Shown here: piece after piece, positions 17,684-37,460 of the stretch
How positions within the stretch are numbered: the first letter of the stretch is position 1
Layout of the letters: each line of letters opens with the position of its first letter
Position numbers and translations under genes: made by a program
Source of the DNA: an uncultured Spartobacteria bacterium
GTDB taxonomy: Bacteria; Verrucomicrobiota; Verrucomicrobiia; Chthoniobacterales; Chthoniobacteraceae
Length of the DNA: 52,612 nt
Reading direction: 5' to 3'
Assembly: GCA_903919125.1 (NCBI GenBank)
Contig: CAIXGS010000008.1
Location: forward strand, 1 to 52,612
The notes under the pieces: model-generated
Database searches by the model: none
Seen by the model: only the letters and a program-made list of their open reading frames with translations
What the model was told of the DNA's origin: nothing

Positions 17684-17729
17684 CGTAAATTAGAGAATTA
17701 ACCACCCAAGATTCCCCTTACCTCACTCG

Positions 17730-18737: not shown

Positions 18738-18755
18738 AGGGGTGGAGCGTCGTGA

Positions 18756-20930: not shown

Positions 20931-23444
20931 TCACTTCCCGCTGGAATTACCCGAGAGGACAAGCTGCAACAATTCGTCTCCAGTGTAACGATCTGCAGCC
21001 CCATGAGGGCAGGAGGAGACGCAGCGCGGTTCGGGCGTGTCCTTGTTCCCTTCCGCATCGCAGAGATCGCAGGCCACGGCCTTGGGTTGAGCCAACCGGA
21101 AGTGATGAGAAGACGAGTCTGGCGCATTGGATTTCGGCGCCGCGTTGTGTTCATTGGGCACCATAAAGATGCTGCCATACGGACAATTATTGGCGCAGAG
21201 ACCACATCCAATGCAGTGGTCTTCGATGACGATCTGGAGATGTTTTCCTCTGTGAATGGAGTCCACCGGACACCCCACCATACAATGAGCCTCAACACAG
21301 GAGCGGCACGAAGTGGCCACCATGAAGTTGCCCAGACGCATCCCGTCCCGAAGCAAACGACTGACAGGCACTCCGTGGGAATGAGTCCCATGCTGCTCAA
21401 CGCAACCCTTAGTGCATTCGTCGCAGCGGATGCACAAGTCCATGTTCAATGCCAGAATGCTGCGCCCCTCGTAAAGTCCCTGACTTACGTAATTGTCCAC
21501 GATGGGATTCATCTGGCTGTCCCCCTTCAGAAAACCGAGCGAACGCTCAATTAAGTGCCTCCGCAAAGTGGGAAATTCGCGTAGCATCGGGAGGAAGTCC
21601 TCACGACTGAGGCGTGCCACTTCCAATTGGCCAAGGGCCGAGCAACTCGCCGAACGCACTCCAATGGGAAGCGCCGTGGCGAGGTCAACCCCCGAATCAT
21701 TGAGGATCGGCAACATGGCACGCTCCACTTCGTCTACGGTCCTGTGGGCGTCTCCCGCTGCCAGCGCCAGCATCCCAATTTCGCCAATCATCCCGCCTGG
21801 ACCACGGGAAACCACTCGGGATTCCTCATCGTAGCGTCGAATCCCGATTCGCGTATAACCCAAACGGACAATATAAAGGCAATCCGCCGGTTCCCCTTGC
21901 TCAAAGAGGACCTGCCCGGGATTGATGCGCAAAAAGGTAATGCGATTGCGCATGTACTCGATGATGCGAGCGTACTCCTCCTTAGGAATGCCTTGGAAAA
22001 TGCTAGAAGATTGCAGCACCAAGTTAAGAGCTCGATCGCGGTACGCTTTCTCAAACTTCTGACGCTGACTGGGCAAGCGCATCAATCGATCCAGCACATT
22101 GCGGCGAATTTCCCACACTTCCCCGTCCTCGAGCACTTTGAGGTCCGCGCTTCTAGGCGAACCGCTCAAACAGGACATTTCCCCCACGATCACGTCTTCA
22201 GAAGTCACCTCGACCTCAAAAATAACCTCTTTGCGAGACTTGCCCATCCAAGCACTAAAGGTACCCTTCGCCCCTGGAAGCTCAGGCTTGAACACCGTAG
22301 TGAGATAGCGCCCAGAGCGCATAATAAACGCAGTATTACCTGCTTCCCCCTGCTGCATGAGCATGCTTCCTGCACGAACTCTGCGGCGCATCACCAACCC
22401 CTCCTGCCAGAGCAAAAACTTGGGCGGAATCCCAAAAAAGAGGGGATCCTTGAGCAGTTCAGCAGCCGAAATTTTCTCCGCAGCGCCGTGTTTAGTCGCC
22501 GGCTTCACGGCGGTCACAGGATTGAAGGTAATGGCGCTAGTGGGGCACGAAATCATGCATTCCCCACACTGCACACAGTCGCTCTCGCCCATGGGTTCAT
22601 CCAAGTCGAAGCCGATTGAGGCTTGAGCCCCCTTCCCTGTGCGCCCGATAATGTTGTTGCCCTTCACCTCGTTGCACGCGCGTACGCAACGATCGCAAAG
22701 CACGCAAGCACTGTGGTCGGTCACAAACACAGGGGACGAGGTGTCCAACCGCTGTCTGTGCGCGATGGCCTCGGGCTGTAACGGCGCGAAAACGTCGAGT
22801 TTGAGGCGCGAGGGGTCGGCGCCGCAGCGGTCTACCAAACGGCCCAATTCGTTAAACGGAGCCAGTTCCCTGTCGAGTTCAGCGCGTGGAGCCGGCTTAA
22901 GATGATCCACCGCGAGCAACTCCGTAAGGGTACGCACCGATTTGCGCACCCGTTCCCCATCGGCACCGGGGTCCTCCATGGTAAACACCTCCATGCCCTC
23001 CTTGACTTGATGCTGACAGGCAGGGAGCAACTTTCGCTCCGCCGCGCGCTTCCCACGTTTTTGCCCGTAAATTTGCACCACACAAAGCCGGCACACCGCC
23101 ACGGGCTTCATGTGCGCCTGATGACACAACACTGGGATGGGGATTTTGACCTCGTCCCCGGGTTGCTTCACGTAAAGCTTGGTGGCGGCGTCGTAAATGG
23201 TGGTGTAGCGAGGAGTGGTGCGGCCCTCGAGGTCCAGGATGATGTTTCCATTGGCGTCCTTGGAGGGCTCGGCCATGGGAACAGTAACGGTTTGACCGTC
23301 GATTTGCAGGGTGACGCTCCTGCTGTAATCCCGCTCCACAGGCGCGTCTAGACGCACCAACTGGCCGTTGATATCGCGGCTAAATAGGCCCTCGTCGTCG
23401 TCTTCGCGAAGCAGATGGGCGCCGGGTTCGTTATTCGGTAGCAT
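20931..23444 (-). CDS. Seven-cluster iron-sulfur protein with two cyclic-nucleotide-binding domains
   Basis: An 837-residue cytoplasmic-type protein with no signal peptide. Domains in order: a NuoG/HydA-like [2Fe-2S] domain (C107, C118, C121, C143); a degenerate NuoG His-Cys3 segment (about 170-210) that keeps a His but has no Cys cluster motif; a 2x[4Fe-4S] ferredoxin unit (C247/250/253/257 and C290/293/296/300); cNMP domain 1 (about 335-465) with cassette GEMSCLSGSPRSA including the phosphate-binding Arg431; cNMP domain 2 (about 475-635), whose cassette is split by about 35 residues between GEIGML and VRSASCSALG; and a DmsB/HybA-type unit with 16 Cys for four [4Fe-4S] clusters (C671-C812). 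It follows the NuoE-NuoF gene by 11 bases. It probably accepts electrons from that flavoprotein. The cNMP domains suggest control by cyclic nucleotide, which is inference. Confidence 0.88.
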   Translation of the reverse strand: MLPNNEPGAHLLREDDDEGLFSRDINGQLVRLDAPVERDYSRSVTLQIDGQTVTVPMAEPSKDANGNIILDLEGRTTPRYTTIYDAATKLYVKQPGDEVKIPIPVLCHQAHMKPVAVCRLCVVQIYGQKRGKRAAERKLLPACQHQVKEGMEVFTMEDPGADGERVRKSVRTLTELLAVDHLKPAPRAELDRELAPFNELGRLVDRCGADPSRLKLDVFAPLQPEAIAHRQRLDTSSPVFVTDHSACVLCDRCVRACNEVKGNNIIGRTGKGAQASIGFDLDEPMGESDCVQCGECMISCPTSAITFNPVTAVKPATKHGAAEKISAAELLKDPLFFGIPPKFLLWQEGLVMRRRVRAGSMLMQQGEAGNTAFIMRSGRYLTTVFKPELPGAKGTFSAWMGKSRKEVIFEVEVTSEDVIVGEMSCLSGSPRSADLKVLEDGEVWEIRRNVLDRLMRLPSQRQKFEKAYRDRALNLVLQSSSIFQGIPKEEYARIIEYMRNRITFLRINPGQVLFEQGEPADCLYIVRLGYTRIGIRRYDEESRVVSRGPGGMIGEIGMLALAAGDAHRTVDEVERAMLPILNDSGVDLATALPIGVRSASCSALGQLEVARLSREDFLPMLREFPTLRRHLIERSLGFLKGDSQMNPIVDNYVSQGLYEGRSILALNMDLCIRCDECTKGCVEQHGTHSHGVPVSRLLRDGMRLGNFMVATSCRSCVEAHCMVGCPVDSIHRGKHLQIVIEDHCIGCGLCANNCPYGSIFMVPNEHNAAPKSNAPDSSSHHFRLAQPKAVACDLCDAEGNKDTPEPRCVSSCPHGAADRYTGDELLQLVLSGNSSGK

Positions 23445-23455
23445 GAAAAGGCCTC

Positions 23456-25510
23456 CTAAGAGTTAATTTGCGGGCTCGCCTTGGGTGCAGTGAGGTGTTT
23501 GGCAACGTCTGCTGGAAAAAAGTTTATCAACGTCCGCAAAGGCGCAGGGACCGACCTGCCCAACCCACAGATCGAAGACATCTCGATCGCCCCAAGCAGA
23601 TCTTTCATCATGGGCACCAACTCCTCTTTCCAAGTCGTGGCGTCAATTTTTCCGGCCAACAAACTGGCGGCTAGAGAAGTCATTTTCTGCGACCCCAAGC
23701 GGCAAGGCACGCACTTACCGCAGGATTCGTTGCGGTAAAACTCCATGGAATAAAGAGCCTGCTCAGCCATGTCGCGGCCCTCCGCGTAAACCACAAGTCC
23801 CGCGCCCAAGGCTTGGGTCGGGCTCAACGCTCGGAACAAGTTGAGTTCCAATTCCAAATCAAGAATATCGATTTCTGGGGAAGCCGGATCAATCCCGCGA
23901 CGGCCAGCCAGCGCAATCCAAGCCTTGTTGTTGACGTGATCCCTAGGCAAACCGGCACCTGCTTTGAGTTTGGCCGGCAAAAAGCCGCCCGAGGGACCAG
24001 AGGGCGCGAACGCTTTCATGGGCAGGTCATTCACGATCCCCCCGCAGTAGTTTTCTCCGTAAACGAGCTCACGCAACGTCATGCCCATGGGCACTTCGTA
24101 CACACCCGGTTTTTTGACATCGCCTGAAATCGAGAAAAAACGCCGCCCCTTCCAACCGTTGACCCCGAGGCCCGCGTAAGTGGCACCGCTTCGCAAAAAG
24201 ATGTAAGGCATCCACGCGTAGGTTTCCACGTTGCTGACAATCGTAGGGAGATCTTGTAACCCGTTGGTTTCAAGTTTCGGCGGCATGTTTCTGGGTTCGC
24301 CGCGCCGATCGGACATCGCCTCAATTAAGGCGCTCTGTTCCCCGCAAATATAGCCTCCCGGACTCACAAAAACGCTCACAGGAAACGGCCGACCCAAAAC
24401 CGGAGCATCGCTCCCACACATCCCAAGCTCCTCCGCACGAAGAATCTCAGCGCGACAAGCCTCAATTTGTTCGGTGTATTCGTGGCGGATATAAATGAAG
24501 CCTTGAGAAGCGCCGGTCACGAGTCCGGCCATAATAACGGCCTCGACCACAAGATGAGGCGTGCGCAGCAAAATCTCCCTGTCCTTGAAAGTGCCCGGCT
24601 CACTCTCGTCCCCATTGACCACCACAAACGCCCGAACGTCAGTCCCACGAACGCGCGCAGTGCGCACAGCGTCACGAACATCCCGCAACTTCTGCGATAC
24701 GGGGATTCCAGCGCCACCCATGCCGCGCAAATCTGCCGCCTCAAACTCCGTCAAAATTGCTTCAGACCAACCGCCCAACTCTTTGCTCTTCGCCCAATCG
24801 GAGTCGGACTGCCACGCCAGAACCGCTCGGTCGACTTCCGCATCCTCTTGATTGGCGACCTTGTCCTCTCCGACCGCTTTCTGGCGGAAAGCCTCCAGTT
24901 GATGCGGTCCGAGATGAAACTTCTCTGCGGCGAGCTTGGATGCCGCCAAAATTGAATCGTTTCGAGCGATCACAACTTTGCTAACCGCCGCGTAGTCGCA
25001 AGGTTTGCCTTCGTAAGGATCCGCCTGAAAAGTCGGCGAGCTTGCAGCGTCACGTGCATCGCTGTCATGGGCGGCTCGGGAACCTTGCAAAGCAGCTCGC
25101 ACGACGCCCTCCAGTTCAGTGCCACTACGCCCAAGATGGTAGGACTCGTGCTCGTCACCCGCCGTCGAAAGACACGCGGCGGGGGCCCGGTCACAGCGGC
25201 CTAAACACGAAACGCCGTGCACCTCCACTCCTTCTGGGAAAGCGCGTTTCAGCGCATCGGTCGTTTGGCGGGATCCGGCCATTTGACAAGCCATATCCCG
25301 ACACACATGAACACTCACCTTCGCAGGGGCTTTAAATCGGAAATGGGGGAAAAAACTCCCGACCGCCTGTAAACGCGCCATCGGAATGCCGCTTTGCTGG
25401 GAAAACTGTTCCATGGCAGCACTCTGCAGGTATCCAAACTGATGCTGGATGCGATGCAACGCTGGGACAACTACCGGGGCGTAAGGAGGCTGGGGCGCCG
25501 AAGCACTCAT
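23456..25510 (-). CDS. NuoE-NuoF fusion, NADH-binding flavoprotein
   Basis: Cytoplasmic NADH-oxidising (or NAD-reducing) module. The 684-residue product starts at the ATG at 25510, overlapping the upstream cytochrome stop as ATGA; a longer frame exists, but the overlap and domain start favour this ATG. NuoE-like thioredoxin-fold [2Fe-2S] part: C70-x4-C75 and C102-x3-C106. NuoF-like part: RGMGGAGIP (262-270) and NGDESEPGTFKDR (299-311) for FMN/NADH, GGYICGEQSALIEAM (385-399), an SLBB region, and the [4Fe-4S] Cys set C597/C600/C603/C648 (ESCGKCVPCRLG). All ligands are intact. No other Nuo subunits or [NiFe]-hydrogenase subunits lie nearby, so this is not a standard complex I or HoxFU operon. 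It is flanked by a decaheme cytochrome and an Fe-S protein. Confidence 0.92.
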   Translation of the reverse strand: MSASAPQPPYAPVVVPALHRIQHQFGYLQSAAMEQFSQQSGIPMARLQAVGSFFPHFRFKAPAKVSVHVCRDMACQMAGSRQTTDALKRAFPEGVEVHGVSCLGRCDRAPAACLSTAGDEHESYHLGRSGTELEGVVRAALQGSRAAHDSDARDAASSPTFQADPYEGKPCDYAAVSKVVIARNDSILAASKLAAEKFHLGPHQLEAFRQKAVGEDKVANQEDAEVDRAVLAWQSDSDWAKSKELGGWSEAILTEFEAADLRGMGGAGIPVSQKLRDVRDAVRTARVRGTDVRAFVVVNGDESEPGTFKDREILLRTPHLVVEAVIMAGLVTGASQGFIYIRHEYTEQIEACRAEILRAEELGMCGSDAPVLGRPFPVSVFVSPGGYICGEQSALIEAMSDRRGEPRNMPPKLETNGLQDLPTIVSNVETYAWMPYIFLRSGATYAGLGVNGWKGRRFFSISGDVKKPGVYEVPMGMTLRELVYGENYCGGIVNDLPMKAFAPSGPSGGFLPAKLKAGAGLPRDHVNNKAWIALAGRRGIDPASPEIDILDLELELNLFRALSPTQALGAGLVVYAEGRDMAEQALYSMEFYRNESCGKCVPCRLGSQKMTSLAASLLAGKIDATTWKEELVPMMKDLLGAIEMSSICGLGRSVPAPLRTLINFFPADVAKHLTAPKASPQINS

Positions 25511-27030
25511 GGTTTCGATGGGACAGGGGTGGTAGGAGAGGCCGGATGAACCGCCGCCTCTAAAACAGGAGGCGTGAAGGAGCTGTGGAAGTGATGGCAG
25601 TTCTGGCAAGAGAACTTCACTCCCTCTTTTCCGGTGCTGGTGAGAGGCTGGTGACACTCTACGCAAGACTGCTGGGTGGGCAGCAAAATATCACTGGTCA
25701 GCGTGCTCTTCAACGCTGCGCCATGGCAGTCCGTGCAGGCGGATTGCTTGTGGGGTTGGTGATTGAATGCGCCCTTCGCAAGCCAACGCGTAGGAGTAAG
25801 CGGCGGTTGCACTTCAGGGGACGAACCGGCGTCACCACCCGTGACGGTGTGGCACTTGGCGCACTCCGTCAAAAACTTGGGCTTTCCAGAGCGCATCAGG
25901 AGTTCGCCGCCCAAATCCTGTGGATCACCCTGCAGGAACACGCGCTTTACCATATCATCAACCGAAAATAGCCCTCTTCGCTGCAAGGCCTCCCGCTCCT
26001 CCTTGACCCTGAGGGAAACCGCCACAGGCTCGCTCACTCCCGAGGCTCGGACACTGGATTCGATAGAAGAGTCTAATCCAGCGAGGAACAGCTTAACGGT
26101 TCTAGAGTCCCCGTGGGGAATATGCAGATCGGGAAGTGACTGCTGAATTTGAAGTGAGTGGCACTCTTGGCAGTGCTTTTCATAACGCACCGGCTGATAG
26201 AATACGCCGTTGGCATCCGGTTGGTGACAAGAGGCGCAATCCAACTTCGCATTGTTGAGCTTAGGAATGTCGCCCCGAAAATGCCGCGCATGATTGAACT
26301 TGAGATCGGAGGGATCGCGAGCTTCGGGGCTTTCATAACCAAAACTAGGGTGCCCATGGGCGAAGCTTGCAAAGGCGGCCAACGACTCAGGAGCACGTGC
26401 AGAGGGAAGAAAAAGACGTAGTCCCTCACCAAGGTCGACAGTTTGCCCCCCCGACACAGCGGAGGTGGTTGCGCTAGAAGGTGTCCGCTTGGGCAACGTG
26501 CGGGAGTCGTGGAGGCGCGTGAGAGAACCGTGGCAGTCGGTGCAACTCTGGTTGGAGGGAAGTGCCATCCGGTGAGGGCCGGCGTGTTCCCGGTGGCAAC
26601 TCGCGCAAGAAGACGCATGAACCAGCCCTTGAGAGGCTTGGTTGAACCCCACGGTCATGATCTGGGGAGCGTGCAAACCCGTGCCGGGGTGGCACGTCAT
26701 ACACGCAGCATCCATGGCTTCCAAGGAACTCATGGACGCAAGCTTTGTTATATTTTCGAACAAATCCGCACCCAACGACTCCCCAGAACCTGTGTGACAC
26801 GTCTCACAGCGGTCCACTAAATGAGCATGATTTTGAGAAAGTGGGCCGGGACTGAACTTTTTTGGAGACCCCCATTTGCCAGAAATAAAGACGCCGAGCG
26901 CACACAGCGCCACAACGAGGCTGAAACACAAAAACCGGAGACGGCGCCAATAATGAGGCCGCCTGAAGTACCCCAAATTACCGGCGTACCCCTTGGAAAT
27001 ATTTTTCTGAGAATCAGGATTTTCTGGCAT
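25507..27030 (-). CDS. Membrane-anchored decaheme cytochrome c
   Basis: The product is 507 residues from the ATG at 27030. It has one N-terminal membrane helix (about 31-50, RFLCFSLVVALCALGVF), uncleaved in appearance, then a periplasmic region with ten CXXCH haem-attachment motifs: CETCH, CMTCH, CASCH, CTDCH, CASCH, CQECH, CAKCH, CTDCH, CVECH and CQNCH. Extra His residues between them can serve as distal ligands. It starts 5 bases after the cytochrome b gene and its stop overlaps the NuoE-NuoF start. Likely role: periplasmic electron carrier docked to the inner membrane, next to the cytochrome b. An in-frame start further upstream (27147) would overlap cytochrome b and is less likely. Confidence 0.93.
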   Translation of the reverse strand: MPENPDSQKNISKGYAGNLGYFRRPHYWRRLRFLCFSLVVALCALGVFISGKWGSPKKFSPGPLSQNHAHLVDRCETCHTGSGESLGADLFENITKLASMSSLEAMDAACMTCHPGTGLHAPQIMTVGFNQASQGLVHASSCASCHREHAGPHRMALPSNQSCTDCHGSLTRLHDSRTLPKRTPSSATTSAVSGGQTVDLGEGLRLFLPSARAPESLAAFASFAHGHPSFGYESPEARDPSDLKFNHARHFRGDIPKLNNAKLDCASCHQPDANGVFYQPVRYEKHCQECHSLQIQQSLPDLHIPHGDSRTVKLFLAGLDSSIESSVRASGVSEPVAVSLRVKEEREALQRRGLFSVDDMVKRVFLQGDPQDLGGELLMRSGKPKFLTECAKCHTVTGGDAGSSPEVQPPLTPTRWLAKGAFNHQPHKQSACTDCHGAALKSTLTSDILLPTQQSCVECHQPLTSTGKEGVKFSCQNCHHFHSSFTPPVLEAAVHPASPTTPVPSKP

Positions 27031-27035
27031 GATCT

Positions 27036-27947
27036 TCAGGGAGTTTGCGTGACCAGAAAACGGATTCCCGCCCAAGCGTGCCAAATTGTCACAATTATCA
27101 GAACCAGCGAGGTGGGAACGTGCACCAAAAGCCAGCCGTGAAGCCAATGCTGAAACCTCGTTTGCAAGTCCGTTAGCCGTCGACTCTCACACCAGGCTTC
27201 GATCTCATCCACCCGAGGACGCCATTCAGGATGAACGTTCACCCTCAAAATTTTGAACATCTCAGCCGCCAACTGAGCGTTCCCAAGATGCAGATTACGC
27301 ACCCCTTTCTTCACCGAGAGAAACGGCAGGCATTCGTCATCTAAAAAACGCCCAAGAATCTGAGGTGAAGTGTCGCCACTCAAACCGAGAGCATTGGTCT
27401 CCGCCACTTGAGTGCGCAATTCGGTCGCGGCACGCAAAAGCGATTCCCGAACAAAAGGAATTTGTTCAAATACCACCTCCCGAGGAAGATGCTCACGCAT
27501 AATCGAGGGCAAAAAATGTTGTAAAATCACCCCAAAAATTCCGCTTACCATCACCAATGTGTAAAGCGCCAACAACCCCATGGTGTGCGGCCCTCCTATC
27601 CGAAAGCCCGAATGCAACACCACCAGAGGGATCGTCAAAACGGTCAGCCACAAATGGGCCTTCAGCCACGTTTGTACACTGCCAATGGGCCACAACCGCT
27701 TCTTCTTGCGCACCCCCAGCGCCGCCGCAAACAGAAAAATCCCTAAAGCCACGATGCCGAACAACAGTCCAAGAGGTGTTCCTCCGTAGTTTGCGCGGAG
27801 GGGTGGAACAGGGCCCAAAACAGCGGGAAACTTTACACCGCGTGGCAAAAATTCGGGATGCAAGTTTAATGAATAGGAGATCGCTGCAATAACAGTTAAT
27901 GCAGTAACTAACAAAATCCAAGGTAAGTGCGAACGATCAATCCTCAT
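27036..27947 (-). CDS. Membrane diheme cytochrome b-like protein
   Basis: A 303-residue integral membrane protein with about five helices: 9-28, 57-79, 93-113, 122-144 and 272-296, and a soluble stretch of about 125 residues before the last. Two helices each carry a His pair 14 residues apart: H98/H112 (KAHLWL, VLHSGF) and H276/H290 (LLVHVP, TIWHAW). This is the pattern of a bis-His, two-haem b bundle as in cytochrome b and ferric-reductase-type proteins. I do not recognise a named family. It is the first gene of the minus-strand operon with the decaheme cytochrome, NuoE-NuoF and the Fe-S/cNMP protein, so it is the best candidate for moving electrons across the inner membrane. Confidence 0.72.
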   Translation of the reverse strand: MRIDRSHLPWILLVTALTVIAAISYSLNLHPEFLPRGVKFPAVLGPVPPLRANYGGTPLGLLFGIVALGIFLFAAALGVRKKKRLWPIGSVQTWLKAHLWLTVLTIPLVVLHSGFRIGGPHTMGLLALYTLVMVSGIFGVILQHFLPSIMREHLPREVVFEQIPFVRESLLRAATELRTQVAETNALGLSGDTSPQILGRFLDDECLPFLSVKKGVRNLHLGNAQLAAEMFKILRVNVHPEWRPRVDEIEAWCESRRLTDLQTRFQHWLHGWLLVHVPTSLVLIIVTIWHAWAGIRFLVTQTP

Positions 27948-28208
27948 ACGCGAACAACTGCGGAAACTAAAAGTCAGTCCGCGAACACAGGGGTGGCTCT
28001 TGGATGGTTGACTTGTAAACAGGGAAAATGGTTGGTTGTAAAAAACATTTTCTTATTAAACGTTTGTTCATTCAGTATCTTTCTCTGAGAAATCTATCAT
28101 TCGACGCACGTCACTTCCTGTCAGACTTCTCTGCGCTCACTTTTGAAAGTACTTCCCCCTTTGAGCGACCGTTTACTCCGCTAACACTTCGCTAATGCAA
28201 ATTTAGAA
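27948..28208. promoter_or_regulatory. Divergent promoter region of the electron-transfer cluster
   Basis: A 261-base gap between the divergent starts of the cytochrome b operon (minus) and the tetraheme cytochrome gene (plus). It is visibly richer in A/T than its surroundings, particularly 28010-28100. It must hold both promoters. I see no convincing -35/-10 pair or operator palindrome and do not assign finer sites. Confidence 0.55.
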
Positions 28209-29348
28209 ATGAAAGTACCCAAAACCCTTCTTCTTATCTCGCTTACGTGCTTGGTTTTGCCGACTTTCGCCGCAGATTCCGGCAACCCTGCCCAAAGCGG
28301 AAAATTCACAGGCACTCAGTCCTGCGGCACTACCGGGTGCCACGGCGGCGGCACCATTCATAACGAATCAATCATTTTTGAGCGGAAGGATCCCCATGGT
28401 GTCGCCTACGGGATTCTCGGTAAAGGAACCTCCCTGCGCATCGCGGAGGCCCTCGGCATCAAGGGGGACCCGGCAAAAGACATCCAGTGTAACGTCTGCC
28501 ACGCTCCCATGCAGGGGGTAGACGCCGAATTCTTCGTCAAAGGCCTCAAGCCCGACCGGGGCGTGGGATGCGAATCGTGTCACGGTGCGGCTGAAAACTG
28601 GCTGAGGTTCCACACCCGTCCAGACGTTGATTTTCAACAGATTATCGCCGCTGGGATGCGCGATCTCAATGACATTTACGGGCGTGCCAACTCGTGCGTT
28701 GGCTGTCATCTCAATCTGGACGAGTCACTGCGCAAAGCGGGGCATCCCGAGCTGTTTTTCGAACTCGACGGCCAGTGTGCCGCCCAACCACCGCACTACC
28801 GCGACGCCCGTCCCTCGCTGGGGCCTCGCTCTTGGCTCACAGGCCAGGCAGCTGCTCTTCGGGAAATGAGCTGGAAACTTTCACTTAAAGGGGACGAAAA
28901 CTTTCTCCCTCGCTGGAAAGCTCTGGTGTGGCTGCTACAAAAAACCGAACTTGGCCGACAGGAACTCCCTGCAACTGAGGACTTCGCCGCCATGCAAAAG
29001 GCAGCTGACGGCTTGGCTCGGAAAGCCGCCCCAAAATTGTGGTCCACCCCCGCAGTGCAAACCCAACTCCAAGAATTCTCAGCGCTTCACACCGAGTTTG
29101 AAGTCCAAAATTCCGACAAAGCCCTCCTCCAACGAAAGGCGGAAGTCTTAGTGCCCGCCCTCGATCGACTATGGCGCGAACTCCGCAAAACTGGCATCGC
29201 TCAATCGGAGTGCGAAACCTCCATCCAAACCCTTCATCTTCTGGCGATGGACCACGAAGACTTCGATCCCGCTAAGTTCTCAACCGCGCTGGGTAAACTG
29301 AAAGTCTCGCTGACCAACCTAAGCGCGGCAGACAGCAAGAAAAAATAA
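28209..29348 (+). CDS. Cytochrome c554-like tetraheme cytochrome
   Basis: A 379-residue exported protein with a signal peptide (1-21, cleavage after TFA). It has four haem-binding motifs: CGTTGCH (a CX4CH spacing, unusual), CNVCH, CESCH and CVGCH, all in the first 180 residues. The region FERKDPHGVAYGILG and the pattern of spacing resemble the cytochrome c554/c' family of small periplasmic multihaem carriers. The second half (about 215-379) has no haem motif and looks helical. Likely a soluble periplasmic shuttle between the inner-membrane decaheme cytochrome and the outer-membrane components. It is transcribed away from the cytochrome b operon. Confidence 0.85.
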   Translation: MKVPKTLLLISLTCLVLPTFAADSGNPAQSGKFTGTQSCGTTGCHGGGTIHNESIIFERKDPHGVAYGILGKGTSLRIAEALGIKGDPAKDIQCNVCHAPMQGVDAEFFVKGLKPDRGVGCESCHGAAENWLRFHTRPDVDFQQIIAAGMRDLNDIYGRANSCVGCHLNLDESLRKAGHPELFFELDGQCAAQPPHYRDARPSLGPRSWLTGQAAALREMSWKLSLKGDENFLPRWKALVWLLQKTELGRQELPATEDFAAMQKAADGLARKAAPKLWSTPAVQTQLQEFSALHTEFEVQNSDKALLQRKAEVLVPALDRLWRELRKTGIAQSECETSIQTLHLLAMDHEDFDPAKFSTALGKLKVSLTNLSAADSKKK

Positions 29349-29394
29349 CGCGCCATCCTTCAAGGTGCGGCTTCTTAGGCTGGGAAGTTTCCGA

Positions 29395-29416
29395 ACCGTT
29401 TAACATCCTAAACGGT
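29395..29416. terminator. Hairpin between convergent genes, possible terminator
   Basis: ACCGTTTA at 29395-29402 pairs perfectly with TAAACGGT at 29409-29416 around a 6-base loop. It sits in the 98-base gap between the convergent tetraheme cytochrome and HbpS-like genes. There is no T run on either side, so it would be a weak or factor-assisted bidirectional terminator. Confidence 0.45.
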
Positions 29417-29446
29417 AACGCCCTCCGCGCCTGCTACTGAATCTAT

Positions 29447-31108
29447 TTACTGCGGGTTACGCGGGAACTTCACGTAAGGAAGGCGCGCTCCCCGGTAAAC
29501 AAGAGTGTCGGACCGGATTGCATCGGCTGCCAAAAAGTTGGCGGTTCCGCTCGCACAAATCATGTCATCCTGATCCACGCCATCGCCTGAAACACCGATG
29601 GCTCCGATCAATTCTCCATTTCGATACAAGGGCAGACCACCAGGGAAGATGGTCATTCCATTGGGAAGATTCGTGTTGCCGGGATAAGTTAATGGCGCTG
29701 AGGACGACAAGGGAGACGTTTTCAAAGAAACCGCCTCTTGAAGTCCGAAAAACGGTCCCCATGCCCGACCATCTATGCCCGGTGGATAAAAGCGTTGGGC
29801 AAGGAAGCCCACGGCCCGAGTGCTCATCGCAGTGGTCTTATTCGAGAAAAACACGGCGGTACGGGCCTTCTGCGCACTCACATCCCAACTAAACATAGTC
29901 GCCTCCCCGACCCTGAAGACGCCAAGTACAGCGGGGGGCTCGCCGTCGCTGTTTGGATTGTTCACCACGGTGATGAATGTTTTGGCGCGCGTCCCCAAGG
30001 GCAATCTGATTCCCGCGCGAATGATGCTACAACGCTGCGCGGCGAGCGTAAGGATACTGGTCACTTCCGCCGCCGTAAGCCGCGCGGCAGCTCCTGCCCC
30101 AATAGTTCCCGGAAGTGGATCGGCCTGAATGAGCTGACGAGTCTCCCCCGCAACCCCTCCAAGACTGCTTGGTCCGAGGGTGCTGAAGTCATAACTAGCT
30201 GGAGAACCCTGAGGAGTGTAGACGAAGCTGTCGACAGGATCCGTGACCACGCTTCCTACTGCCGGAAATGGAAGAGGAGACGGAGGCTCGGGCAATTTAG
30301 AAATATTGCCGATCACATAAGGCACACGGATTCCACCGAGGAGCACATTCGTCGCCAAGATTTTAGTTGAAGGCCGAAACCCACTTTGGGCGGCAAGGGC
30401 CACATTTTCATCGGTATCCGCGGGCACTTTGAAGCCAGCCGTGGAATTTGTTGGAGGGGTGCTACTGAGCAAAAAGGCAGCTGGACTCAGATTTGAAGGG
30501 CTTGAATCGCCCGTCACCCCGACTCCGCCCACCAGTTCTCCGTTAATGTACAGAGGAACGCCTCCGGGCGAATCATCAAGCGAGGTGAACGGTACGGCTG
30601 GGGTTCTGGCTCCAGGCGACCCGACGACGCCTGCTGAACCATTAAATCCTGCGGGGATCCTCTTGAAGCGATTGACGTCAGAAAAAAAGAGGTTCGAAAA
30701 ACCCACTCCTACCAGAGGACCCGGAGGAGAGTTTCGTATCCCCGGAGGAAAATGCTGCTGGATGATGTACCCTGCGGTGCGCGAGGTGAATGCATTTTCG
30801 TTGCTGCTCAAAAATGCGGCCGTCCCCGCTCTGGAAACAGCAGAGGCGATCACTCCCTGAGCTGGCGCGGTGGTGCCAACATTACGCACGCCCAGTACAA
30901 AGCCCTCGCGATCCACCACAGCCACCACAGACTGGGAACTATACTTGGAAGCGTAAGCCGCCCCCTGATCAAGGATCCGGATCACGTCCGGCCCGCTCAA
31001 CGACTGGGCCGCCGATGCATCGCAAGTCAAAGCGCCCAACAGTACAAAAGCAGCTTTGGAGATTTGCTCGCCGAGAGAGCTTGAAAAATTTCGAATCGCA
31101 TCTGGCAT
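29447..31108 (-). CDS. Exported protein with two HbpS/GlcG-type (haem-binding-like) domains
   Basis: A 553-residue protein with a signal peptide ending near residue 34 (CDASAAQS). Two HbpS/GlcG-like domains are present. The first is at about 37-200 (LSGPDVIRILDQGAAYA, VVAVVDREGFVLGVRNVG, GGVPLYINGELVGGVGVTGD). The second is at about 340-545 (LTAAEVTSILTLAAQR, FPGGLPLYRNGELIGAIGVS). The linker between them is low in conserved motifs. Some relatives such as HbpS bind haem or degrade it to sense iron and redox state; others are uncharacterised. Lying between cytochrome genes and divergent from the porin, it could act in haem handling or redox sensing, which is inference. Confidence 0.8.
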   Translation of the reverse strand: MPDAIRNFSSSLGEQISKAAFVLLGALTCDASAAQSLSGPDVIRILDQGAAYASKYSSQSVVAVVDREGFVLGVRNVGTTAPAQGVIASAVSRAGTAAFLSSNENAFTSRTAGYIIQQHFPPGIRNSPPGPLVGVGFSNLFFSDVNRFKRIPAGFNGSAGVVGSPGARTPAVPFTSLDDSPGGVPLYINGELVGGVGVTGDSSPSNLSPAAFLLSSTPPTNSTAGFKVPADTDENVALAAQSGFRPSTKILATNVLLGGIRVPYVIGNISKLPEPPSPLPFPAVGSVVTDPVDSFVYTPQGSPASYDFSTLGPSSLGGVAGETRQLIQADPLPGTIGAGAAARLTAAEVTSILTLAAQRCSIIRAGIRLPLGTRAKTFITVVNNPNSDGEPPAVLGVFRVGEATMFSWDVSAQKARTAVFFSNKTTAMSTRAVGFLAQRFYPPGIDGRAWGPFFGLQEAVSLKTSPLSSSAPLTYPGNTNLPNGMTIFPGGLPLYRNGELIGAIGVSGDGVDQDDMICASGTANFLAADAIRSDTLVYRGARLPYVKFPRNPQ

Positions 31109-31200
31109 GGTGTTTTTTTGCCCTAATTATCTTCTGCTTCAAGCACCAAACCGCTACACGCTTTCCGGACAATCGGCCGAATCGAACGGCTAAGGTGAAA
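31109..31200. promoter_or_regulatory. Short divergent promoter region, HbpS-like gene and porin
   Basis: A 92-base gap between the divergent starts of the HbpS-like gene (minus) and the outer-membrane porin (plus). Both promoters must overlap here, which suggests joint control. An AAGGTG sits just upstream of the porin ATG at 31201. Confidence 0.5.
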
Positions 31201-33411
31201 ATGAGCCCACCCACCCACCCGAAATTCTTCACATTAAAACGCCTCATCGCGCTCAGTTGCGTCGCTTGGGCAGCGGCGTCGCCTGCTGGAGATTCACAGG
31301 GGGTGGGTGCAGGAAAGCAATCGAAGCTGCCCCCTGTTTTCAACCCTGATCCCGGCGCGTGGGCCACGCCCTCCTCTCAAACTGTCGCAGACACCGTATC
31401 CCCGCCGCCTCTTGCCGAGGCCATTAGAACGCTCGGACGCCTAACTCCTATCGACATTGCTCGCGAACCGCTCGCCGCCAAGGAGCGAGCCCCTGGCGAA
31501 TTTGCGGCGCACGACTATCCCTTGGCGAAAGACGGGCGTGGTTTGCTGAATTTAAGCACCGCCGTTCCTAATCGCTGGGCGGTGCCTCTCCCGCACTGGC
31601 AGCGTTATTTAGATCCCAGCATTGAAACGCCTTACTTGCAGGAAAAAACAAGACTCTGGCACCCCTACCAGCAAAGCCGTCTCAAGGGAGATGTGCCAAT
31701 TTTTGGACAGGATATTTTCACCAATATATCAGCGAAGAGCTTCACGTTTTCTGAGTTCCGTAGTCTTCCAGTTCCTAGCGGGGTCAGCACTGTCAGCCCA
31801 GGTCGATCCGAGTTTTTTGGGAATGGCAATCAATCTCTGATTTCCACCGACACTTCCGTAGCCATCGATATCTTCAAGGGGGAAACCTCCTTCAAACCTG
31901 TTACTTGGCTTCTGCGCCTCAACGCAGTCCAAAACAATAACTGGGTCCGCACCCGCGAAAACAACCTCCTCAACCCCGACCCTCGGGGCAGCGACTTCCA
32001 AGACACAACCAGAGCTCCGAATACCACGGGTTTCGGATCCTTCTCGGGGAGCACGGGTAGCTTTAACCCAACCATCACCGCAGGGTCCTTCGGAAGCACG
32101 CTCAATCCAGCCAGTTCCGGCACATCGGGAAACGTTTTAGACCAACTCAAGAACCAAGGGGCGACCCCTGCCTCGAGCAACCAGACCCGCTACACTTATC
32201 GGCAAAAAGATAAGCTTTCCCTCCAAGAGGCCTTCTTGGAAATCCATCTGCGCGACCTATCAGATAACTACGATTTCATCAGCAGCCGGTTCGGTATCCA
32301 GCCCTTTTCCTCCGACTTCCGCGGGTTCGTCTTCTCAGACAGCAACCTTGGTGCGCGGATCTTCGGCAACGCCTCCAACAACAAGTCTCAATATAACCTG
32401 TTGTATTTTAAAATGCGGGAGAAGGACACCTACTCCGAGCTCAACACCTTCGACTCCAGACAACAGCAGGTTTTTATCGCCAACGTCTATCGCCAGGACT
32501 TCCTCACCAAAGGTTACACCGCCCAACTCAGCTTACACGCTAACCTAGACGGAGACAGCACCAAATACGACCGCAACGGGTTCCTAGTGCGCCCCGCCCC
32601 CCTAGGCACCGTCCCACAAAATGAGGCTGACGGCTCTCCCCTAGGACACGATCTACAATCCTACTACCTCGGCTGGGCTGGGGACGGGCACATTGGAAAA
32701 CTCAACATCAACCACGCCTTTTACCAAGCCTTGGGCCGCGACGAATTTAACCAACTCGCTGGACGCAGCGTTTCCATCAACGCTCAGATGGCCGCCCTTG
32801 AACTGAGCGTCGACAGAGACTGGGTGCGCTGGAAATTTTCCGGCTTCTACGCAAGCGGCGATTCCAACCCCACCGATGGCGTTGCCCGAGGCTTCGACTC
32901 AATTATAGACAACCCCGTCTTTTTTGGTGGCCCCTTCAGCTGGTACGCGCGCGAAGGTATAAGCCTGCCGGGTACTGGAGTCAACCTCAAGGAGCGCAAC
33001 TCTTTAGTACCCAGCCTGCGCACCAGCAAAACACAAGGCCAGTCCAACTTCGTCAACCCCGGAGTCTGGATCATTGGCGCGGGCACCGATGTGGACGTCA
33101 CCCCAAAACTCAGGGCTTTTGGCAACCTCAACTACGTCCATCTTGCGGAAACCGCTGCCGTCAAATACGCCCTGCAAACCGACAAGGCACGCTCCGATCT
33201 GGGTGTGGACGCCAGCGTGGGAGTCAAATACCGACCATTTTTAACCGAAAACGTGATCGTCTCATTCGGAGTCGGCCTCTTTTTCCCAGGCGGCGGTTAC
33301 CGAGACTTGTACCGGCAAAACACTGTGCAAGTTCCCGGCTACGACTCGGGCTCAGGTAAGGTGGACCCCTGCCTTTACAACGCCCTTTTGACCCTGACGC
33401 TTAATTACTAA
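31201..33411 (+). CDS. Large outer-membrane porin of the cytochrome cluster
   Basis: The product is 736 residues from the ATG at 31201, which has an AAGGTG upstream; longer frames run back into the divergent HbpS-like gene and are not credible. The signal peptide is 1-28. A soluble N-terminal part of about 150 residues is followed by a long beta-barrel: many amphipathic strands (SRFGIQPFSSDFRGFVFSD, QYNLLYFKMREKDTYSELN), Ser/Gly-rich loops, and a C-terminal Tyr (LTLTLNY). It ends 5 bases before the decaheme-LVIVD gene, so the two are cotranscribed. By analogy with MtrB/PCC porins it may sheathe a multihaem cytochrome across the outer membrane. Sequence similarity to MtrB is not evident by eye. 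Confidence 0.78.
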   Translation: MSPPTHPKFFTLKRLIALSCVAWAAASPAGDSQGVGAGKQSKLPPVFNPDPGAWATPSSQTVADTVSPPPLAEAIRTLGRLTPIDIAREPLAAKERAPGEFAAHDYPLAKDGRGLLNLSTAVPNRWAVPLPHWQRYLDPSIETPYLQEKTRLWHPYQQSRLKGDVPIFGQDIFTNISAKSFTFSEFRSLPVPSGVSTVSPGRSEFFGNGNQSLISTDTSVAIDIFKGETSFKPVTWLLRLNAVQNNNWVRTRENNLLNPDPRGSDFQDTTRAPNTTGFGSFSGSTGSFNPTITAGSFGSTLNPASSGTSGNVLDQLKNQGATPASSNQTRYTYRQKDKLSLQEAFLEIHLRDLSDNYDFISSRFGIQPFSSDFRGFVFSDSNLGARIFGNASNNKSQYNLLYFKMREKDTYSELNTFDSRQQQVFIANVYRQDFLTKGYTAQLSLHANLDGDSTKYDRNGFLVRPAPLGTVPQNEADGSPLGHDLQSYYLGWAGDGHIGKLNINHAFYQALGRDEFNQLAGRSVSINAQMAALELSVDRDWVRWKFSGFYASGDSNPTDGVARGFDSIIDNPVFFGGPFSWYAREGISLPGTGVNLKERNSLVPSLRTSKTQGQSNFVNPGVWIIGAGTDVDVTPKLRAFGNLNYVHLAETAAVKYALQTDKARSDLGVDASVGVKYRPFLTENVIVSFGVGLFFPGGGYRDLYRQNTVQVPGYDSGSGKVDPCLYNALLTLTLNY

Positions 33412-33416
33412 TTTCA

Positions 33417-36400
33417 ATGAGCCTTTTTCGTCCTCTTGTTAGAAAAAAAGTGCTGGGTCTCCTGCTGCCGCTTTTGGTGCTGCTCGTTGGTGGTTGGCGC
33501 GTGCTAGCACAATCTTCCACTACCCCCGGCGCAGGTCCCGCAATCGCTGCGCCCGCCGCGCCTCCGAACTCCCCAATTTCCTCTCTATTTCGCGCCACTG
33601 AAGCCGCTCCCAAGTCTCGCGCTTATTACGCTCCAGCAACCTCTGTAAGCACCTCTCAGGAGCCAACCAAGCCCTCTCCTACACCTCCTTCCCAGAAAGA
33701 ACCTCCTGCCCGTGGATCCGCCAGCGGCGCCCACGGTCCCGCCATTTCCGGCAAGACGCCTCCAGTGCACGCAGGTCCACGCCCACCCAAGAACTGGATT
33801 GACCAAAGCCAAGACGAAGCCAAACGCAAAAGTGCCGGTTGCGTAGAGTGCCACACGCAAACCGACGCCCACACCATGCACGCCTCGCCCAATGTGGTTT
33901 TGGGTTGCACAGACTGTCACGGTGGCGACCCCCGCAAAGGTCTCACCATCGTCGACGCCCATGTTCATCCGCGGCATCCTGAATTTTGGAAAGGTTCAGC
34001 CAACCCGCCCAACTCCCATGTCGCGCTAAATCACGAGTCTCCAGAGTTTATCCGCTTCATGAACCCCGGCGACCTGCGAGTGGCCAAAGAGGCCTGCGGC
34101 CTTTGCCACGGAGACATCGTCGACCGCGTCTCCAACTCCATGATGAACCACGGCGGGATGCTCTGGAACGCAGCCGCTTACAACAACGGCGCCATCAACA
34201 TCAAGGACGCTGTCGTCGGCCAAGCCTACGGCGCGGATGGAGTGCCTCTCACCCTTAATAACCCCTTCGTCCCCACTGAAGAAGAAACACGTACGCTGGG
34301 TATCCTTCCATCTCTAAGCCCCCTGCCCCGCTTTAACATCTCGCAACCGGGCAACTTGTTCCGTATTTTTGAAAAAGGCGGCAGCGACCAGCTCACCCTC
34401 GGTATCCCCACCCTCGATGAGCCCCCCGGCAAACCTGAACGACGCCTCTCCCAACGCGGCCTTGGCACACTCAACCGCATCGACCCCGTCTTTTTGGGCG
34501 CCCAAAAAACTAGGCTCCACGACCCTTTGCTCGGCTTTCTAGGCTCCAACGACCGGCCCGGCGATTACCGCTCCAGCGGTTGCACCGCCTGCCATGTCGT
34601 CTACGCCAACGACCGCTCCCCAAGCAATTCAGGCTGGTGGAGTAAATACGGTAACCAAGGACTCAGTTTTTCCAAGGATCCCACGATCCCGAAAAATGAA
34701 AGAGGCCACCCGATTGTTCACCAGTTTACCCGCGCGGTGCCATCAAGCATGTGTATGAACTGCCATATGCATCAGGGCAATGCGTTCGTTAACCCCTACC
34801 TCGGCTACACTTGGTGGGATCAGGAAACCGACGGCGAATTCATGTATCCCAAAAAGCAGAAGGACCCTTCCGAAGAAGAAATGGCGAAGGCTGCTGTCAG
34901 TGCTCCGGAAGCAGCGTCGGTTCGCGGGCTTTGGGGAGATTTGGACTTTCTGGAAAAAGTGGCGGAACTCAACCCAAAGCTCAAACACACACAGTTCGCG
35001 GACTACCATGGCCACGGCTGGGTGTTCAGGGCGATTTTCAAGCAGGACCGCAAGGGCAACCGCCTTGATCTCGACGATAAAATCGTGGCGCATTCCGACT
35101 TCAAACGCGCAGTGCACCTTAAGGACATCCATCTCGCCAAGGGGATGCAATGCGCGGACTGCCATTTCAACGTGGACGTCCACGGCAACGGCCTTCTTTA
35201 TGGCGAAGTGCGTAATGCCGAGACTATTGAGTGCATCGACTGCCACGGCACAGTCTCGGAGCGCCCGCGCAAAATCGTCGATGGGCGCATCACCATGCCG
35301 ACCTCCGGCGCCAGCGGCGAGACCACCCCTGAGGACCGGCGCACGATCAAACCGGTGGACCTCATGACCACCAAAACCTCGTGGCGGCCCCGCTTCGAGT
35401 GGGAAGGCGACAAGCTTTTCCAAAACTCTACCATGTCAGCCGACATTCGCTGGGAAGTCCCGCAAACCGTCGACGTCATCGACCCCAACTCGCCCCGCTA
35501 CAACGCCAAGGCGCGTTACGCCAAAACCATCGAGCGCGACGGCCAGACTTGGGGAGCCGAGACCTCGAGTGCCGATGCCTGCGCCCGCATGGCGCACAAC
35601 AACAAGTCCATGGACTGCCAGATTTGCCACTCCTCCTGGGCCACGAGTTGCTTCGGCTGTCACCTGCCCATGAAGGCCAACACGCGCACCCCCCAGAACA
35701 AGTACGAAGGCGCCGTGGATCGCAATTTCATCACCTACAACCCGCAGGTCGTCCGAGACGACGTCTTTATGCTGGGACTCGATGGAACTGTTAAAAAGAA
35801 CCGCCTCGCCGTCATTCGCTCCTCCAGCGCCGTGATCGTGGGCTCCCAGAACAACAATCGGGAATGGGTCTACTCTCAACAGCAGACCGTCAGCGCCGAG
35901 GGTTACAGCGGACAAGCCTTTAACCCGCACTTCGCCCACACCACCAGCGGTAAAGGCACCACAAAAAACTGCACAGACTGTCACCTGTCCAAAGCGGGCG
36001 ACAATAACGCCTGGATGACCCAGCTCCTCGGATTCGGCACTGGAACAGTCAACTTCTTCGGCCGCTACGCTTATGTGGGCGGAGAAAAGGCCGTCCATGG
36101 AGTAGTTTGGACTGAACAGGACGAACCGCAGAGCGCCATTGGCAGCTCCTTCCAGAAACTCGCTTACCCTCGCAATTTTGAAGAGCACCTCGCTAGGGGC
36201 AGGCGCTTGGAAGAAGGTTACGAGCATCACGCGCACACCATCAACGACCTCACCCTACGGGGCGAATACCTCTACACCGCCAACGGACTGGGAGGTTTGG
36301 AAGTCTTCGATGTCGCCAATATTGATAACAAGGGGTTCAGCGAGCGCATCACCAGTTCGCCTGTCTCCCCCTTGGGCGGTCAGCGCACCGTAGTACGCTC

Positions 36401-37460
36401 CAAGTTCGCCACATCCGTCGCTTTGCCCAGCACCCTGATGATCGATCCGGAACGCACTCGGCTCCCGCGCAACGAGGAAACTCCGATCCACCCCTCGTAC
36501 AGCTTTGTTTACGTCACAGACCGCGAAGAAGGACTTATCGTCGTGAAGGCAAGCGCCTTATTCGACGGTGATCCTAAGAACAACTTCCTCTCCCGGAGCA
36601 AACTTAAGGACACCTCTGGCAAATCGATCGGCAATCATTTCAACCCCAATGGAGTACTCTCGGGCGCCGAATATGGCCTCTGCGCTGGGCATCGCCTTTA
36701 CGTCTGCACCAAACGCGGTCTCGCTGTGGTAGATCTCAACGAACCGGAACGCCCGCGCCTCGTTGGGGAACTCGCTGATGGCTCCCTGCGCAACCCCAAG
36801 GCGATCGCCATTCAATTTCAGTACGCTTTTGTGACGGACGACGACGGGCTCAAAGTCATCAGTCTGGAAGATCCCGAGCATCCAAAGCTCCTCCCCAAAG
36901 CCACCGTCGCTTTGAAACACGCCCACAAACTCTACGTAGCGCGCACCTACGTCTACGTGGCTAACGGCCCAGAAGGGATCGCGATCGTTAACATCGAAAA
37001 GCCCGCCCGCCCTAGCCTCGAGCTTATGTACAACGCCGATGGCGCGCTCAACGACACGCACTCCCTCCAAATCGGTTCAATCGCCGCCTCCATGTACGCC
37101 TTGGTGGCCGACGGTAAAAACGGATTGCGCGTCCTCCAGCTCATCTCCCCAGACACCGTCGAGGGCGCCGCTGGATTCAGTCCGGCCCCAGCGCCACGTC
37201 TCATCGCCACCTATCCCACTCCCACCCCGATGCTCGCTGTGTCTCGAGGCCTCGATCGTGACCGCGTGGTGGATGAAACCGGCAAACAAACCGTCGTTTT
37301 CGGCCGACGCGGCGCTAAGCCCTTCGCTCTAGAAGACATGGCCCGCTTCCTAAAACACTCTAACGGCGCCGCCTTCCGGGTCGAGGACGTCACGGGATCG
37401 GGAAGCGAAGTGCGCACGAAGTCCGGCAATCCGCTCCCAAAACCGGTTGGGGACCGCTGA
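33417..37460 (+). CDS. Decaheme cytochrome c fused to LVIVD-type beta-propeller
   Basis: A 1347-residue exported protein. The signal peptide is 1-32 (VLGLLLPLLVLLVGGWRVLAQ), followed by a Pro/Ala/Ser-rich linker to about 130. A multihaem region at about 140-860 has ten CXXCH motifs: CVECH, CTDCH, CGLCH, CTACH, CMNCH, CADCH, CIDCH, CQICH, CFGCH and CTDCH. The C-terminal region of about 935-1290 has six repeated blades of the LVIVD type, such as LYTANGLGGLEVFDVANI, LYVCTKRGLAVVDLNEP and YVYVANGPEGIAIVNIEKP. It starts 5 bases after the porin. It is the likely terminal, surface-facing or periplasmic electron carrier of the cluster. The propeller may bind a partner protein or an external substrate; this is inference. 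There is no clear ribosome-binding site, so it may be translated by coupling to the porin gene. Confidence 0.9.
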   Translation: MSLFRPLVRKKVLGLLLPLLVLLVGGWRVLAQSSTTPGAGPAIAAPAAPPNSPISSLFRATEAAPKSRAYYAPATSVSTSQEPTKPSPTPPSQKEPPARGSASGAHGPAISGKTPPVHAGPRPPKNWIDQSQDEAKRKSAGCVECHTQTDAHTMHASPNVVLGCTDCHGGDPRKGLTIVDAHVHPRHPEFWKGSANPPNSHVALNHESPEFIRFMNPGDLRVAKEACGLCHGDIVDRVSNSMMNHGGMLWNAAAYNNGAINIKDAVVGQAYGADGVPLTLNNPFVPTEEETRTLGILPSLSPLPRFNISQPGNLFRIFEKGGSDQLTLGIPTLDEPPGKPERRLSQRGLGTLNRIDPVFLGAQKTRLHDPLLGFLGSNDRPGDYRSSGCTACHVVYANDRSPSNSGWWSKYGNQGLSFSKDPTIPKNERGHPIVHQFTRAVPSSMCMNCHMHQGNAFVNPYLGYTWWDQETDGEFMYPKKQKDPSEEEMAKAAVSAPEAASVRGLWGDLDFLEKVAELNPKLKHTQFADYHGHGWVFRAIFKQDRKGNRLDLDDKIVAHSDFKRAVHLKDIHLAKGMQCADCHFNVDVHGNGLLYGEVRNAETIECIDCHGTVSERPRKIVDGRITMPTSGASGETTPEDRRTIKPVDLMTTKTSWRPRFEWEGDKLFQNSTMSADIRWEVPQTVDVIDPNSPRYNAKARYAKTIERDGQTWGAETSSADACARMAHNNKSMDCQICHSSWATSCFGCHLPMKANTRTPQNKYEGAVDRNFITYNPQVVRDDVFMLGLDGTVKKNRLAVIRSSSAVIVGSQNNNREWVYSQQQTVSAEGYSGQAFNPHFAHTTSGKGTTKNCTDCHLSKAGDNNAWMTQLLGFGTGTVNFFGRYAYVGGEKAVHGVVWTEQDEPQSAIGSSFQKLAYPRNFEEHLARGRRLEEGYEHHAHTINDLTLRGEYLYTANGLGGLEVFDVANIDNKGFSERITSSPVSPLGGQRTVVRSKFATSVALPSTLMIDPERTRLPRNEETPIHPSYSFVYVTDREEGLIVVKASALFDGDPKNNFLSRSKLKDTSGKSIGNHFNPNGVLSGAEYGLCAGHRLYVCTKRGLAVVDLNEPERPRLVGELADGSLRNPKAIAIQFQYAFVTDDDGLKVISLEDPEHPKLLPKATVALKHAHKLYVARTYVYVANGPEGIAIVNIEKPARPSLELMYNADGALNDTHSLQIGSIAASMYALVADGKNGLRVLQLISPDTVEGAAGFSPAPAPRLIATYPTPTPMLAVSRGLDRDRVVDETGKQTVVFGRRGAKPFALEDMARFLKHSNGAAFRVEDVTGSGSEVRTKSGNPLPKPVGDR

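Follow-up and report, generated by a model that had tools for sequence, protein, structure and literature searches.

Eight genes in a 52,612-nucleotide stretch of DNA from an uncultured Spartobacteria bacterium (the window) form a co-inherited set that, judged by its sequences, looks like a wire from cytoplasmic NADH through both membranes. On balance, we consider it probable that the locus encodes a single trans-envelope electron line whose cytoplasmic end would oxidise NADH and in which electrons would run outward under cyclic-nucleotide control. The features that make it appear unusual among known porin-cytochrome systems lie on the input and control side.

Gene content and predicted cofactors

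The four genes P0004-P0003-P0002-P0001 of the minus strand follow one another at spacings of 5, -4 and 11 bases and were therefore taken to be an operon. P0004 (27036..27947) is a cytochrome b-like inner-membrane protein with five predicted transmembrane (TM) helices and, by motif, two haem b sites: W94-X3-H98-X13-H112 is located on TM3 and W272-X3-H276-X13-H290 on TM5, with S135-G-X-X-G on TM4. The haem-motif and SGXXG residues are invariant in 28 homologues. The AlphaFold model of P0004 (pLDDT 85.8) gave no significant Foldseek match when compared with the PDB, and its VIA rows were generic helical bundles. No Pfam family matched the protein, including ferric reductase PF01794, with which it has only the HX13H motif in common; searching the PDB by sequence yielded nothing useful for P0003, P0004 or P0008. 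P0003 (25507..27030, likely start corrected to 27030) is a membrane-anchored decaheme cytochrome c with one TM segment and 10 CXXCH motifs, all conserved, compared with a mean of 0.05 in shuffled sequence.

P0002 (23456..25510, likely start corrected to 25510) is a NuoE-NuoF fusion (PF01257, PF01512 and PF10589 over cut-off) and thus a predicted NADH-oxidising FMN flavoprotein. It carries FMN, NADH and 4Fe-4S motifs that are conserved in the alignment, and among its relatives of solved structure HydB, HoxF and NuoF score best. The features of an NADH diaphorase of the HoxEFU/HydABC/Nuo type are present: P0002 provides the NuoE 2Fe-2S site and the NuoF FMN/NADH site and 4Fe-4S motif, and P0001 contributes the HoxU-like 2Fe-2S and two 4Fe-4S clusters of the diaphorase set. 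P0001 (20931..23444) consists of a HoxU/NuoG-like N-terminus, with NCBIfam matches at 1e-28 to 1e-34 to HoxU or to the N-terminal part of NADH-dependent hydrogenase, two cyclic-nucleotide-binding (cNMP) domains and a four-cluster ferredoxin domain at the C-terminus, like those serving membrane cytochromes in the formate dehydrogenase and DMSO reductase families. Its ligand sets correspond to one 2Fe-2S and six 4Fe-4S clusters and are conserved in 41 sequences, down to ∼30% identity; His-Cys cluster ligands, as in diaphorase modules, are not conserved in this 41-sequence alignment.

On the plus strand, P0005 (28209..29348) is a predicted periplasmic tetraheme cytochrome of c554-like type (PF13435) with three CXXCH motifs (shuffled mean 0.01) and one CX4CH that is kept in 23/23 homologues. 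It is separated from the predicted outer-membrane beta-barrel P0007 (31198..33411 from its corrected likely start at 31198) by an accessory minus-strand gene, P0006 (29447..31108), coding for an HbpS-like secreted protein (PF03928, 2.3e-20). An HbpS-like gene adjoins the barrel gene in Verrucomicrobiota, Planctomycetota and Sphingomonadaceae. P0008 (33417..37460, plus strand), which begins 5 bases past the end of the barrel gene, combines a Sec signal and 10 CXXCH motifs (shuffled mean 0.02) with LVIVD beta-propeller repeats (PF08309, 9.6e-12); its homologues across phyla are 44-50% identical over ∼1200 residues. No lipobox or surface signal was seen on P0008. Assignment of P0008 to ExtM was rejected, the NCBIfam match being only partial (71 bits, cut-off 800).

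All parts that an earlier note on this DNA had listed for 20931-37460 were found there; its list had passed over the HbpS-like gene at 29447-31108 and the two cNMP domains of P0001. The note had also described a large porin and a complete candidate path to the outer membrane. A barrel gene is indeed present, and so are the other parts; the size and the completeness are less certain, as the AlphaFold model of P0007, of low confidence (mean pLDDT 58.5), has ∼18 strands and does not resemble a large MtrB-type barrel, and as the cytochrome b may have a quinone site. Its best matches were AlgE (VIA Z 22.8, rmsd 3.3, 360 residues) and OprD/Occ channels. A barrel of this modelled size would be narrower than MtrB, and narrow for a threaded multihaem protein. 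P0008 may run through the barrel, be exposed on the cell surface or act in the periplasm.

Co-inheritance and the proposed pyridine-nucleotide input

A genome scan with P0001 located 48 loci, mostly in Chthoniobacterales and Gemmataceae, with one in a Riflebacteria MAG. NuoEF precedes the Fe-S gene wherever the contig extends that far, and genes for the cytochrome b, the decaheme and the tetraheme cytochrome adjoin this pair in most of the loci; the exceptions are L012, L015, L016 and L021, which carry the long variant of P0001 (see below) and in which no cytochrome b or decaheme gene was located beside NuoEF. The propeller cytochrome and the barrel are present in 19/19 P0001-carrying genomes searched whole, even where their genes lie elsewhere. 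Among 197 genomes of the window's order, in which the propeller was sought with the propeller part of P0008 alone, 43 contain both the P0001 family and the propeller, 5 the P0001 family only, 1 the propeller only and 148 neither (Fisher p 1e-36, with genomes counted as independent despite kinship). Five of the six single-family exceptions are drafts that are <90% complete; the sixth, G324, is 93% complete. Within the window's own genus, eight genomes, the window's included, have both and four have neither. Phylum-wide sampling with P0001 returned only the window's own genome and two short forms, a consequence of the module's concentration in a single order.

The Riflebacteria MAG has a run of genes in one orientation that code for the propeller cytochrome, a decaheme cytochrome, two tetraheme-type proteins, NuoEF, the Fe-S protein and cytochrome b; the barrel gene lies immediately upstream of this run, and the HbpS gene closes the cluster. 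A long distance separates the operon from the barrel or propeller gene in some genomes of Planctomycetota and Chthoniobacterales. In two short-variant genomes (L100 12546-14765, L101 5863-7878), barrel, HbpS and propeller form a separate locus away from the cNMP-FeS/cytochrome b/decaheme operon. The 19/19 genomes, the counts of 43, 5, 1 and 148 and the single Riflebacteria cluster support the proposal that both halves belong to one unit.

The genome has its own complex I, with nuoD, a nuoE-F fusion, nuoG and membrane genes on contig C76 and nuoB and nuoC on C73 (family searches covered PF01512 and PF00329; the remaining gene names derive from ORF position and similarity). The window NuoEF is neither encoded with the quinone and membrane modules of complex I nor the sole copy for them. 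The complex I NuoE-NuoF of this genome (L056 8207-10231) is likewise fused; fusion by itself is no special mark of the window copy.

About half of the P0001-family genomes of the order contain a shortened P0001 that comprises the cNMP domains and the four-cluster end. In the short-variant operons (L058, L059 and L103), the Fe-S protein stands with the cytochrome b and the ten-haem cytochrome, and none of them has a flavoprotein gene. Window-type NuoEF (>970 bits) was detected in 5/5 long-variant genomes and 0/21 short-variant genomes tested, the latter giving NuoF matches only at ≤194 bits. NuoEF is therefore tied to the HoxU-like extension and not to complex I. Together with the separate nuo genes, the absence of window-type NuoEF from 21/21 short-variant genomes supports a NuoE-NuoF unit that is independent of complex I. 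The earlier idea of a single NADH-fed path built from both halves thus stands as regards co-conservation and independence from complex I, its reach to the outer membrane being less certain. As half of the related genomes in the order have no NuoEF, the core does not depend on NADH entry via NuoEF.

A different input is encoded on plasmids. The propeller cytochrome is found on twelve Sphingobium plasmids and one Sphingopyxis plasmid (40-44% identity, ∼1200 residues), and genes for the cNMP Fe-S protein and cytochrome b are also carried by 12/12 of these Sphingobium plasmids; with P0004 as query no match was obtained on the plasmids, and the Sphingobium relative was located via the neighbouring gene. 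On pMSHV of S. herbicidovorans (L110), c554-HbpS-barrel-propeller cytochrome genes face those for the Fe-S protein, cytochrome b and decaheme. At the N-terminus of the Fe-S protein of this plasmid is a Pyr_redox FAD/NAD(P)H oxidoreductase domain (PF13738, 2.5e-20; PF07992, 2.9e-14), whose FAD motif GSGPAG lies just upstream of the annotated start. One chain is thus, by sequence, combined with exchanged input modules: NuoEF/HoxU, a fused Pyr_redox FAD reductase, or no fused flavoprotein. Since two unrelated pyridine-nucleotide flavoproteins occupy the same position, we favour NAD(P)H as the donor that would feed the chain, the flavoprotein swap being the best sequence evidence for it.

The plasmids that carry the module in S. 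herbicidovorans (L110 5036-21325) and Sphingopyxis indica (L111 6405-16104) are typed conjugative, and the Sphingopyxis region holds the outer half only. The Sphingobium decaheme (L110 16150-17949) has an extra N-terminal cytoplasmic domain before its TM anchor (PF16697, 3.6e-6, below cut-off) that is missing from P0003 of the window.

Proposed electron route, related systems and alternatives

For the direction of flow, the order of the middle steps, the gating, the surface exposure and the acceptor, we infer the following route. NADH would reduce the FMN and 4Fe-4S cluster of NuoF in P0002, from where electrons would enter P0001 at the 2Fe-2S and 4Fe-4S clusters in its HoxU-like part and move on to its four-cluster C-terminal domain. 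This domain would deliver them to the two b haems of P0004, which would take them through the inner membrane; the anchored decaheme P0003 and then the periplasmic tetraheme P0005 would be next. The decaheme-propeller protein P0008, associated with the barrel P0007, would then receive them and pass them to an outside acceptor such as humics, Fe(III) or Mn(IV). Cyclic nucleotide bound to P0001 would control the flow, and the role of the line would be redox-balancing discharge rather than energy-conserving respiration. A quinone-free wire exports negative charge at the cost of membrane potential, in the manner of NADPH oxidases; a gate would therefore make sense, and the wire fits a gated redox-discharge role.

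More tentatively, and with less than even confidence, we propose that the module is a line that would discharge electrons from NAD(P)H to the cell exterior, independently of quinone and gated by cyclic nucleotides, in which exchangeable pyridine-nucleotide input modules are attached to a fixed core, and which would occur in Verrucomicrobiota, Planctomycetota, Riflebacteria and, on plasmids, Sphingomonadaceae. Equally tentatively, the fixed core would comprise the cNMP and four-cluster Fe-S protein, the diheme cytochrome b, the decaheme, the AlgE-like barrel and the decaheme-propeller protein. If true, an NAD(P)H-fed, cyclic-nucleotide-controlled line would represent a different way of redox balancing in soil and freshwater bacteria that are abundant and poorly understood. 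Homologues in the culturable Sphingobium herbicidovorans MH, Zavarzinella formosa, Limnoglobus roseus and Gemmata make the question accessible to gene removal.

The quinol pool feeds those extracellular electron conduits that have been studied best, and our literature search (largely openly readable journal papers) found no NADH-fed arrangement of this kind. MtrABC/MtoAB/PioAB conduits contain an MtrB-type porin of ∼26 strands; the AlgE-like, low-confidence model of the window barrel has ∼18. The diaphorase modules of HoxEFU, HydABC and NuoEFG have NuoE, NuoF and a HoxU-like cluster set in common with the window proteins, whereas the window NuoEF lacks a hydrogenase or complex I partner and the HoxU part is fused to cNMP and four-cluster domains. 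The Hmc, Tmc and Qrc complexes, like the window locus, join a cytoplasmic Fe-S protein and a membrane part to a periplasmic multihaem cytochrome, but are devoid of an NADH flavoprotein, a cNMP domain, a barrel and a propeller; profile matches to them were weak (QrcA 4e-6, HmcA 3e-4). NADPH oxidases and ferric reductases (PF01794) resemble the window chain in their two HX13H pairs and in the inferred outward flow from a cytosolic flavoprotein, and differ from it in that the window chain has a separate Fe-S input, periplasmic multihaem acceptors and no PF01794 match.

The closest published system is PCC4, which we compared by its description and not by its sequences. PCC4 clusters are known from Hyphomicrobium, Zeta-, Gamma- and other Alphaproteobacteria and Planctomycetes, with subgroup II including Planctomycetes and Alphaproteobacteria (PMC5566968). 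Their inner-membrane protein has five TM helices with WX3HX13H on TM3 and TM5 and SGXXG on TM4 (PMC5566968), a signature that P0004 displays throughout the 28-sequence alignment. PCC4 systems use 4-, 5- and 10-haem periplasmic cytochromes and no extracellular one, and are proposed to carry electrons into quinone during Fe(II) oxidation (PMC5566968). Porin, tetraheme and decaheme are common to PCC4 and the window locus, and the Fe-S gene of PCC4 subgroup II adjoins the inner-membrane gene; the window has, in addition, the decaheme-propeller P0008. A relative with five CXXCH motifs was found only in the Gemmataceae loci L033 and L048. The main text on PCC4 (PMC5566968) names no NuoEF, cNMP domain or propeller, all three of which are present in the window locus. 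The window module and PCC4 may be branches of one family. The earlier note had furthermore linked the locus to published porin-multihaem clusters of freshwater Verrucomicrobia, a tie that proved weak: phylum and porin-beside-multihaem layout agree, but those clusters pair an octahaem periplasmic cytochrome with a porin that has 20 or more TM motifs, and have no NADH side described (PMC5615132), whereas the window has haem counts of 4, 10 and 10 and a barrel of ∼18 strands. An octahaem cytochrome beside the porin is absent from the window locus.

The flow into quinone that the PCC4 authors proposed for a similar cytochrome b is inward and counts against the outward, NADH-fed route. This route has to be weighed against one in which the cytochrome b holds a quinone site. 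In that case electrons from NADH would pass into menaquinone, or the decaheme would be reduced by menaquinol, with the outer half serving ordinary quinol-driven extracellular respiration. The inner-membrane signature, as in the PCC3/PCC4 proteins proposed to be quinone-active, and the short variants without a flavoprotein in the operon are consistent with this arrangement; however, there are two unrelated arrangements that link the chain to a flavoprotein for NADH or NAD(P)H, and the quinone pool is already served by complex I. We consider a quinone link unlikely, though well worth keeping in mind. A periplasmic terminal reductase, in which the barrel would import a soluble substrate for reduction by P0008 and no electrons would exit, would agree with a barrel model that resembles the AlgE and OprD/Occ substrate channels and not a wide conduit, and with carriers such as Sphingobium, which is aerobic. 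Such a function is improbable in our view, as the barrel and propeller cytochrome genes are adjacent (5-base gap) and co-inherited, as in porin-cytochrome systems, and known substrate-reductase families gave no match in Pfam or NCBIfam.

Inward flow, by which electrons from outside Fe(II), Mn(II) or a similar donor would make NADH, draws on the proposal of Fe(II) oxidation for PCC4. By established potentials, electrons on a direct wire between Fe(II) and NAD+ would have to move uphill and also against the inside-negative membrane potential, and the cluster has no coupling subunit. A wire between NADH and the outside is downhill only in the outward direction, which speaks against an inward, NADH-making role, and we regard this reading as very improbable. 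We give next to no credence to the view that the halves are unrelated neighbours or that NuoEF serves complex I as a spare. The distance of the barrel or propeller gene from the operon in some Planctomycetota and Chthoniobacterales genomes would suit it, but the two halves co-occur despite this scattering and form single clusters in Riflebacteria and on Sphingobium plasmids; likewise, complex I is separate with its own NuoE-NuoF, and the window NuoEF is tied to the HoxU-like extension.

Cyclic-nucleotide-binding domains and neighbouring cyclases

Both cNMP domains of P0001 (PF00027, 1.7e-25) contain the phosphate-binding motif GE...R.A, with G421, E422, R431 and A433 and G554, E555, R597 and A599 conserved to at least 93% in 41 homologues, and they are retained in every variant examined. 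These domains suggest that electron flow through P0001 would be under cyclic-nucleotide control. A CHASE2 class III nucleotide cyclase (15593..17683, minus strand; PF05226 and PF00211 over cut-off), a tentative member of the gene set, is encoded 3 kb from the Fe-S gene, a position kept in close relatives, and is a possible source of the nucleotide for P0001.

Class III cyclases of differing architectures adjoin module genes in L014, L017, L100, L101 and L107. Altogether, 924 kb of locus DNA contained 14 cyclases, about nine of them independent, as against ∼2-3 expected from genome counts (∼four-fold), with a cyclase profile that was built from the found cases. Several genomes have no cyclase near the module. 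The enrichment is modest, and a link between cyclase proximity and gating is suggestive.

The cyclase gene is the last of three on the minus strand (15593-20762) that lie directly downstream of the Fe-S gene, the others coding for a FecR-domain protein and an outer-membrane protein. This triad is kept at the same place in L008, L009, L011, L020 and L049. A short-variant cNMP Fe-S protein (L109 7983-10667) has a long Trp-rich stretch inserted between its two cNMP domains.
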